Origin: Acidobacteriota bacterium
Lineage (GTDB): Bacteria; Acidobacteriota; Blastocatellia; Pyrinomonadales; Pyrinomonadaceae
Length of the DNA: 64,000 nt
Assembly: GCA_019242475.1 (NCBI GenBank)
Contig: JAFAVK010000113.1
Span: forward strand, 1 to 64,000
Direction: 5' to 3'
Each line of letters begins with the position of its first letter. Position 1 is the stretch's first letter. This document shows, piece after piece, positions 24,499 through 26,565 of the stretch. The position numbers and the translations under genes were made by a program. The notes under the pieces were generated by a model. It did no database searches. It worked only from the letters and a program-made list of their open reading frames with translations, and was not told the origin of the DNA.

Positions 24499-26565
24499 AT
24501 GGACGCCACGCGCCAGATTTACTGGAACGTCTCGCAGGTGTGGGCGATGTACGCGCTGCTGTTGCCGACGGCGTCGGTGGCGGGCTACGGCGTGTACCGG
24601 CGTTGGAGCCGTTGGCGGCGGGGCCGGCCGGCCGCGCGATTCGACCGGCCTTGGGAGCGCGTGCGGCTCGTGCTCAAACACGCGTTGGCGCAGCGGCGGA
24701 CGGCGCGCGAGCGTTACGCGGGGCTGTTTCACCTGCTCATCAGCTACGGCTTCGTCGTGCTGACGATGGCGACGACGGTCGTCGCGCTCGACGCGGACTT
24801 CGGCACCGCGATCATGCGCGGGCGGTTCTACCTTTACTTCCAGTCGTTCGTCGTTGACCTCTTTGGGGCGCTCGTCATGCTGGGCGTGTCGATGGCCGCG
24901 GCGCGGCGTTATGTTCGGCGGCCGCGGAAGCTCGTCCACACGGACGAGGCGGCGCTCATCCTGGCGGCCGTCTTCCTCATCTGCCTGCAAGGGTTCCTCG
25001 TCGAAGGCTGGCGCATCGCGGCGACGAACGACCCGTGGGGCGCGTGGTCGCCGTTCGGCAACCTCGTGGCGCGCGCGTCGCGGCGTTTGATGAGCGTCGA
25101 GACGATGCGGGGCGCGCACGCCTTCGCGTGGTGGTTTCATCTGGTGACGAGCTTCGCCTTCCTCGCGTGGCTGCCGTACACGAAGATGGCGCACGTGCTG
25201 ACGGCGCCGCTCAACATCTACGCCGCCAACCTCGCGCCGATAGGCGCGGCGCTGAAGAGGATCGACTTCGAGCAGACGGAGTCGTTCGGCGTCAACTCGC
25301 TCGCGGGCTTCACCTGGAAAGACCTGCTCGACCTCGACGCGTGCACCGAGTGCGGGCGCTGCACGGCCGTCTGCCCCGCGCACGCGGTCGGGAAAGAGTT
25401 GTCGCCGCGCGACATCATTTTGCAACTGCGCGACCTGGCGCGAAAAGCAGACGGGGAGACGGGGAGAGGGGGAGACAGGGGGACAGAAGCCGTGTCGTTA
25501 AACGTCACCCCGTCACCCCGTCACCCCGTCACCCCGTCGATGTCTTCCCCCATCATCGGCGCCGTGCCCGCGACCTCGCCCGTGCCTTTGTGGCAGTGCA
25601 CGACCTGCGCGGCGTGCGTCGAGGCGTGCCCGGTCTTCATCGAGCAGATGCCGAAGATCGTGGACATGCGCCGCTTCCTCGTGATGGAGGAGGCCGAGTT
25701 CCCCGACTCGATGCAGGAGGCCGTCATGTCTCTCGAACGGCGCGGCCACCCCTTCAGCGGCACGCAGGCGACGCGTTTGGACTGGGCCGAGGGTCTGAAC
25801 GTCCGCACGGGCTCCGACGTGAAGGACGCCGAAGTCCTCCTGTGGGTCGGCTGCGGCGGCGCGTTGATAGAGCGCAACCAGAAGGTCACGCGCGCGACGG
25901 CGCAACTCTTAGAGCAGGCGGGCGTGAAGTTCGCAGTCCTCGGGCGCGAAGAGAAGTGCTCGGGCGACCCGGCGCGGCGCATCGGCAACGAGTTCCTGTT
26001 TGAACAACTCGCGCGGGAGAACGTCGCGAATTTGAACAGGCACAATGTCAGGAAGGTCGTCACGGCCTGCCCGCACTGCTTCAACACCTTCAGGAACGAG
26101 TACCCCGCTTACGGCGGCGCGTTCGAGGTCTTTCACCACAGCGAATACCTGGCCCGGCTCGTCGGGGAGGGGAGGTTGAAGCCGCTCCCCGATTCGGGAA
26201 AGAAGATAACCTTCCACGACCCCTGCTACCTCGGCCGGCAGAACGGCGTCTACGAAGCGCCGCGCGCGCTCGTGCAAATCTCTACGCGCGGCGGGGCGGT
26301 CGAGATGCCGCGCGCGCGCAGCAACAGCTTCTGCTGCGGCGGCGGGGGCGGGATGAGCTTCGTGGACGAGCCGCCCGACAAGCGCGTCAACCAGGAGCGC
26401 GCGCGCGAGGCTTTGGAGACGGGCGCCGACGTGCTCGCCGTCGGCTGTCCCTTCTGCATGACGATGCTGGAGGACGGCGTCAACGCGCGTAAGGGCGACC
26501 GCGACATGAAGGTCTTGGACGTGGCCGAACTGCTGTGGGAAGTGTCGCAGCCGAAGACGGATTGA
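24499..26565 (+). CDS. Membrane FeS ETF:quinone oxidoreductase (EMO type), with in-frame repeat insertion
   Basis: 688 residues. An N-terminal membrane part (~residues 1-245) has about five TM helices, NarI-like, with spaced histidines suited to heme b. Then C-T-E-C-G-R-C-T-A-V-C-P (~281) and C-T-T-C-A-A-C-V-E-A-C-P (~365) form a twin 4Fe-4S domain, followed by two cysteine-rich CCG domains as in HdrD/GlpC (C-P-H-C and S-F-C-C-G-G-G-G-G). This matches the EMO family reported to pass electrons from ETF to menaquinone, and it follows EtfBA directly. Between the two clusters, residues ~317-346 come from a GACGGGGA/GTCACCCC repeat inserted in frame; both clusters are intact, so activity is plausible. 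The start lacks a Shine-Dalgarno site. Confidence 0.88.
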   Translation: MDATRQIYWNVSQVWAMYALLLPTASVAGYGVYRRWSRWRRGRPAARFDRPWERVRLVLKHALAQRRTARERYAGLFHLLISYGFVVLTMATTVVALDADFGTAIMRGRFYLYFQSFVVDLFGALVMLGVSMAAARRYVRRPRKLVHTDEAALILAAVFLICLQGFLVEGWRIAATNDPWGAWSPFGNLVARASRRLMSVETMRGAHAFAWWFHLVTSFAFLAWLPYTKMAHVLTAPLNIYAANLAPIGAALKRIDFEQTESFGVNSLAGFTWKDLLDLDACTECGRCTAVCPAHAVGKELSPRDIILQLRDLARKADGETGRGGDRGTEAVSLNVTPSPRHPVTPSMSSPIIGAVPATSPVPLWQCTTCAACVEACPVFIEQMPKIVDMRRFLVMEEAEFPDSMQEAVMSLERRGHPFSGTQATRLDWAEGLNVRTGSDVKDAEVLLWVGCGGALIERNQKVTRATAQLLEQAGVKFAVLGREEKCSGDPARRIGNEFLFEQLARENVANLNRHNVRKVVTACPHCFNTFRNEYPAYGGAFEVFHHSEYLARLVGEGRLKPLPDSGKKITFHDPCYLGRQNGVYEAPRALVQISTRGGAVEMPRARSNSFCCGGGGGMSFVDEPPDKRVNQERAREALETGADVLAVGCPFCMTMLEDGVNARKGDRDMKVLDVAELLWEVSQPKTD
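25450..25538. repeat. Family C octamer repeat inside a coding sequence
   Basis: The left arm is GACGGGGA-GACGGGGA-like (25450-25486); the right arm is four perfect GTCACCCC units plus GTC (25504-25538). The arms are roughly complementary. It lies within the EMO gene between its two ferredoxin clusters and stays open in frame, encoding a polar Gly/Thr/Pro-rich linker. A related intergenic copy is at 40075-40180. Confidence 0.88.

Follow-up and report, generated by a model that had tools for sequence, protein, structure and literature searches.

An octamer hairpin element in frame between the iron-sulfur motifs of an EtfD/EMO-type oxidoreductase from an Acidobacteriota bacterium

How does a repeat that occupies intergenic DNA elsewhere in a bacterial contig come to lie, open and in frame, between the two iron-sulfur motifs of an enzyme? 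The question is raised by positions 25450–25538 of the stretch analysed here (64,000 nt of contig JAFAVK010000113.1, assembly GCA_019242475.1; called the window, and its genome G000). A preliminary description of the window had proposed that an octamer repeat is inserted here. We consider it highly probable that an octamer element of a dispersed hairpin class replaced the ancestral EtfD/EMO linker, was tolerated in an unstructured loop, and remained open owing to the sequence of its unit.

The element and its host protein

The element is built of two octamer arrays in inverted orientation. Array 1 (25449–25484) has 4.5 copies of AGACGGGG with an 85% match, and array 2 (25503–25538) has 4.5 copies of CGTCACCC with a 100% match. 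They form an inverted repeat with 35-nt arms, 83% complementary and 19 nt apart, for a total of 89 nt. The left arm has four G-tracts. The RNA of the element has a predicted folding energy of -60.5 kcal/mol (z -5.9 vs shuffles), and an Rfam search of the whole window gave no match at the gathering score. As previously described, the element is open in frame (ORF 24499–26565) and falls between the two CxxCxxCxxxCP (ferredoxin) motifs, all of whose cysteines are intact. It corresponds to residues 318–347 of the host protein.

Pfam profiles divide the host protein into a NarI-like membrane part, two 4Fe-4S motifs, and two CCG domains. Among solved structures, the host protein is best matched by Mycobacterium smegmatis EtfD (9ojn; sequence E=9e-114; Foldseek TM 0.83), and the host gene is behind two ORFs (22655–24438) that were read as etfBA by sequence and gene order. 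By its domains, motifs, 9ojn match, and proximity to etfBA, the protein is assigned to the EtfD/EMO type and is predicted to transfer electrons from ETF to quinone. The earlier name, ETF:quinone oxidoreductase, is to be understood in this sense; the protein, with its NarI-like part, two 4Fe-4S motifs, and two CCG domains, is not the FAD-containing ETF-QO. Mycobacterial EtfD shares with the window protein its fold, its domains, and a disordered loop between the ferredoxin motifs. It differs in having a long disordered C-terminus, missing in the window protein, whereas only the window protein has an element-derived loop.

Two relatives of this enzyme have repeat-like sequence at their ends. In the same enzyme of the closest relative, G107, the C-terminal tail GGEKFNHRDTETQLEQS is read off a downstream CACAGAGA palindrome (L112, G107:C47:35326-35402). 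The C-terminal tail of the EMO relative L024 (VIPSVARDLGGRG...SLTLGM) resembles another translated repeat, and two heptamer arrays (CTTTTAC type) lie close to the start of L024.

Table 1. Positions of the host gene, its element, and related elements (window coordinates unless a contig of the same genome is named).
Feature	Position	Strand	Remarks
EtfD/EMO-type membrane iron-sulfur oxidoreductase, host gene of the element	24499..26565	+	ORF, 688 aa; Pfam CCG, Fer4, Nitrate_red_gam-like; sequence and fold match to 9ojn
Linker between the two CxxCxxCxxxCP motifs	25376..25595	+	73 aa, residues about 294-366; variable among relatives; element at 318-347
Element, left arm	25450..25484	+	G-rich in sense; GACGGGGA units with variants, no T-type unit; reads DGETGRGGDRG
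Element, spacer	25485..25503	+	19 nt
Element, right arm	25504..25538	+	C-rich in sense; exact GTCACCCC units; reads VTPSPRHPVTP
Octamer (CACAGAGA) element	14850..14922		19-nt perfect arms
Heptamer (TGATGAA) element	17817..17866		other unit in G107; empty in G108
Heptamer (GCAGTAG) element	22529..22649		32-nt perfect arms; common to G107; arms differ in concert
Heptamer (AGTGATG) element	24427..24490		3' end of ORF upstream of host gene; other unit in G107; empty in G108
Heptamer (AGTGATG) element	28870..28940		gene 3' end
Intergenic element, same octamer family as the element in the host gene	40075..40149		24-nt perfect arms; other element in G107; empty site in G108
In-frame element 1: EtfD/EMO	25450-25538
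In-frame element 2: PEP carboxylase	C42:60258		L265, G000:C42:60258-60331; PF00311; arms perfectly complementary
In-frame element 3: hydantoinase B	C79:58205		PF02538
In-frame element 4: transpeptidase/SpoIID protein	C45:15425
In-frame element 5: membrane protein with DUF4214	C105:94672
In-frame element 6: two-domain ADH/GFO-IDH oxidoreductase	C15:12786		at the junction

Linker replacement and stop avoidance

The linker that holds the element varies in length and composition across all relatives compared. It is 73 aa long in the window and in G107, and 76–81 aa in other Pyrinomonadaceae. The residues of the G107 linker are unrelated to residues 318–347, and the closest relatives have neither the window element nor a hairpin in this linker. 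Because the length is unchanged with respect to G107 while the residues are unrelated, we conclude that the element took the place of the native linker rather than lengthening it. The preliminary description had pointed to the linkers of relatives as the relevant comparison; no lengthening was found, which refutes its claim that the element adds ~30 residues. Neither do relatives have the same residues in a conserved, nonrepetitive linker: their linkers are unrelated, and five of them hold other 7-bp arrays. We weighed whether the 73 aa common to G000 and G107 point to homology and take the agreement as a coincidence, as the residues are unalignable and other relatives differ in length. The left arm shares 12 nt, GCAGACGGGGAG, with the native linker of G107, which may be due to chance or may mark an entry point.

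Repeats other than that of the window recur in this linker. Across 85 relatives, six genes have arrays of period 7, 8, 10, or 11 in the linker and three have them in the remaining sequence; by array count, 8 are in the linker, which makes up 9% of the sequence, and 4 in the rest (p=1e-6, 85 genes). Five relatives besides the window have 7-bp tandem arrays here with four other units (TTTCGGA in L004 and L008, from one genus; GCACTCC in L009; CAAGCCG in L014; and ATCTCCC in L168), for five different units when GACGGGGA of the window is counted. When the linker is left out and a tree of the host protein is built, five label changes are required on it, and well-supported branches force no fewer than four of them.

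The element would be tolerated because the linker between the motifs is an unstructured loop. An AlphaFold2 model of the host protein, computed from an alignment of 30 sequences, has a mean pLDDT of 85.3, and its single segment below 50 consists of residues 322–346. In M. smegmatis EtfD as solved by cryo-EM, residues 348–373 are left unmodelled, and the cubane cluster ligands are Cys301–311 and Cys412–422 (PMC13083937); as these ligands flank the unmodelled loop, it is the homologous linker. The dN/dS values with respect to G107 (0.077/0.357 upstream of the element and 0.050/0.403 downstream) indicate purifying selection on both flanks. We infer that the whole ORF is translated through the element and that the encoded peptide is probably a neutral flexible spacer.

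An array of 8-bp units cycles through all three reading frames every 24 nt. A G-rich sense arm would be translated as (DGETGRRG)n and a C-rich sense arm as (VTPSPRHP)n or (VSPSPRLP)n. Because the unit is read in all frames, the entry frame is irrelevant, and whether the array is open depends on the sequence of the unit. A sense array of GGGGTGAC has a stop within three units, and one of GGGGAGAC is stop-free. Where T precedes GAC in a G-rich sense arm (T-type units), a TGA follows within three units, and no such arm was seen in genes. In the five in-gene octamer elements, 0 of 19 units in sense G-rich arms are T-type, as compared with 7 of 15 in sense C-rich arms (p=0.001) and 23 of 97 in copies outside genes (p=0.013); these p values are optimistic, given the non-independence of units belonging to the same element, and part of the avoidance is explained by the definition of being inside a gene, as elements with in-frame stops get called gene ends. 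The lack of T-type units in sense G-rich arms would be expected if the stretches are translated.

For the window element, the preliminary description had ascribed openness to AGAC in the left arm in place of the TGAC of the intergenic copy, which is correct as to the kind of change and incorrect as to its place. With T at 25449 (TGAC), the TGA would fall out of frame, because 25449 is the third base of a GCA codon. If the left arm complemented the right arm exactly, its third unit would have an in-frame TGA, near 25465 (DGVTG and then the stop).

Related elements between and within genes

The element belongs to a class, about 50–180 bp in size, in which a 7- or 8-bp unit is repeated in two arrays of opposite orientation on either side of a short spacer. 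Seven elements of this architecture, with differing units, occur in the window, and in several of them the arms are perfect over 19 to 32 nt (Table 1). The sampled 644 kb of the same genome contains 73 (113 per Mb). A 16-mer pattern of the octamer family has 83+93 matches in the genome at ≤2 mismatches, as compared with 4+3 for the reversed control pattern (176 vs 7). With the two inverted arrays, this count establishes that the octamer repeat of the preliminary description is genuine, and the copy at 40075 is confirmed as intergenic. A strict 26-mer form has 38 matches in this genome; of 297 genomes sampled across the phylum, only 8 contain it, and so it is a local amplification.

Elements tend toward the 3' ends of genes. 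In the 644-kb sample, a gene's stop end is overlapped by 33 of the 73 and a start end by 7, and the 62 divergent gene pairs have 2 elements between them, as compared with 16 in the 67 convergent pairs (p=0.0007). Those at 3' ends may serve as terminators, 3' stabilisers, or suppliers of stop codons.

The intergenic elements turn over between congeneric species. Those at 40075, 24427, and 17817 are missing in G108, and elements with other units occupy their sites in G107. The site of the 40075 element in G107 (G107:C47, about 18742-19083) has an AGTAGGC element with a long insert containing nested palindromes between its arms. The GCAGTAG element at 22529–22649 is shared with G107, and its arms have changed jointly (ACGG/CCGT in G000 and ATGG/CCAT in G107), as if complementarity were being kept.

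As to what moves these elements, a Y1 (REP) transposase was considered and rejected: the PF01797 profile found none in this genome, which is 91% complete, while the controls were positive. No target-site duplications were evident by eye at the elements. Literature searches for the literal repeat and peptide strings gave no match, and one for heptamer repeats in Acidobacteria or Blastocatellia found nothing relevant among the papers listed.

Two samples of this genome, about 1.04 Mb in total, with contigs picked for octamer matches and with simple gene calls, contain six elements inside genes (Table 1). Five of the six belong to the octamer family, as compared with 12 of 117 outside genes (p=0.0002); the choice of contigs inflates the overall octamer share and cannot account for the contrast between inside and outside. 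Arm complementarity is lower for the in-gene elements than for those outside genes (median 0.89 vs 0.95, p=0.018, n=6). Together with the stop-avoiding bases of the sense arms, these six elements support the earlier suggestion that such elements can become protein sequence, with translation as the inferred step. A further in-gene match, C42:14767 (GC-rich, score 8), was rejected as due to chance. L267 (G000:C26:21654-21678) has a single in-frame AAAGGCA heptamer array that reads EKAEGERQKAKEG; no partner arm of the array was detected, and the 720-aa protein has no Pfam match.

Three of the other genes were likewise compared with their orthologues. A single β-turn of hydantoinase B is occupied by GACGGGGA octamers in G000, GGTGCTG-type heptamers in G107, GGGGAAGA octamers in G106, GCAGTGG-type heptamers in L229, and GCAGTAA/GCTCACG-type units in L231, and has no element in G108, L233, and L234. 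Five of 13 of these loops have a palindrome score of at least 13, a score reached by 0 of 363 control windows taken from these genes. The corresponding counts for the loop of the membrane protein are 3 of 4 and 0 of 125. Solved hydantoinases in the alignment have only a short turn at the site. The predicted model of hydantoinase B places the element between strands E104-110 and E142-148; the model is poor (mean pLDDT 66, shallow alignment) and serves solely for this placement. PEP carboxylase has octamer elements in G000 and G106 (L274), and none in G107, G108, or other aligned orthologues. Different elements thus occur in one loop across sister species, at loop or unstructured positions and with stop-free sense arms.

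Alternative explanations and known systems

An ordinary low-complexity linker could have become repetitive in place through replication slippage, with no dispersed element involved. Such an origin would suit a loop that varies in length and composition in all relatives, and short units can be expanded by slippage; it is nonetheless improbable, as slippage yields direct arrays and no matching inverted array, this octamer recurs at dozens of other sites in the genome with the same inverted architecture, and arrays of period 7 and 8 concentrate in the linker. Least probable of all is an artefact of assembly or binning that mis-joined a repeat into the gene. Short dispersed repeats are difficult for short-read assemblers, but the palindrome is merely about 90 nt, and the gene is continuous, in frame, conserved on both sides, and syntenic with G107 and G108. 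Mis-joining would also not be expected to produce stop avoidance in sense arms, or differing elements in the same loop in independent assemblies.

Two further alternatives credit the element with a function, and we hold each to be very unlikely. The hairpin might be retained because it acts on the mRNA, for instance by making ribosomes pause between the iron-sulfur halves, with the peptide as a by-product. The stable predicted RNA fold speaks for such an effect, whereas the reduced complementarity of in-gene arms and the lack of a hairpin at this site in the closest relatives speak against it. Alternatively, the new linker might be adaptive and alter regulation or the way in which the enzyme contacts ETF. 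Mycobacterial EtfD as modelled with AlphaFold3 does have a disordered region at ETF, albeit a different one (PMC13083937); tolerance fits better than a shared function with the unrelated linkers of sister species and the like replacement in unrelated enzymes.

Replacement of a tolerant linker by a dispersed element, the reading we prefer, would have the elements spread by copying from other sites. A broader proposal, which we put forward tentatively and regard as somewhat less likely to be right than wrong, is that a process active now in these Acidobacteriota writes palindromic tandem 7/8-mer elements both between genes and into a fixed set of permissive loops, where one element gives way to another of unrelated unit as sister species diverge, such that loops of core enzymes are rewritten wholesale and not by point mutation. 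Such repeats do appear to rewrite permissive loops of core enzymes repeatedly. Because sister species hold different elements in the same loop, they offer a natural series for studying the origin of protein segments, the tolerance of loops, and the movement of repeats. There is also a caution for annotation: recurrent peptides like DGETGRRGD, VTPSPRHP, or ISDFGFR in the predicted proteins of these bacteria are to be taken as translated repeats and not as functional motifs.

Several known systems share features with these elements. Borg tandem repeats evolve fast and create disordered protein segments, and within ORFs their unit lengths are divisible by three (PMC9879509). The elements here likewise give a disordered protein segment; Borg repeats are direct and not palindromic, whereas the units here are 7 or 8 bp and are read through all frames. 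REPs are moved by Y1 transposases (RAYT). The present elements are similarly short dispersed palindromes close to gene ends, in a genome in which, unlike in REP/RAYT systems, no Y1 transposase was found. REPs have a length of 20–40 bp (PMC3733652).

The GGGAATC heptamer repeats of Xanthomonas are tandem and dispersed, often form inverted pairs (70–75 cases per genome), and are rare between divergent genes (PMC4692102). They and the GGGGA(C/T)T repeats of Nostoc have a single unit type per organism and are under-represented in coding regions, and in-frame use is not described for them (PMC4692102). Dispersed tandem units, inverted pairs, and scarcity between divergent genes are common to the elements here. 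Unlike those heptamers (GGGNATC or GGGGA(C/T)T, period 7), the window unit is GACGGGGA with period 8, and many unit types coexist in this genome, some in frame in core enzymes. Quadruplex formation in vitro is a feature of the G-rich Xanthomonas and Nostoc repeats; the left arm of the element in the host gene has four G-tracts.

Rickettsia palindromic elements are about 150 bp, fall into families, and encode a conserved peptide; they are dispersed, some being intergenic and others lying in frame within metabolic genes that are unrelated to one another (PMC10969869). As there, a palindromic repeat is found here in frame in genes of different families, six in number. Judged by the published description, the elements differ in size and makeup, with 89 nt for the window element and many 7/8-bp units in the class. 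They also lack a common sequence, and sister species hold different units in one loop. The conversion of intergenic hairpin repeats into protein sequence of core enzymes is extended beyond Rickettsia, through a different kind of element. The class resembles both the Rickettsia palindromic elements and the Xanthomonas heptamer pairs and belongs to neither.
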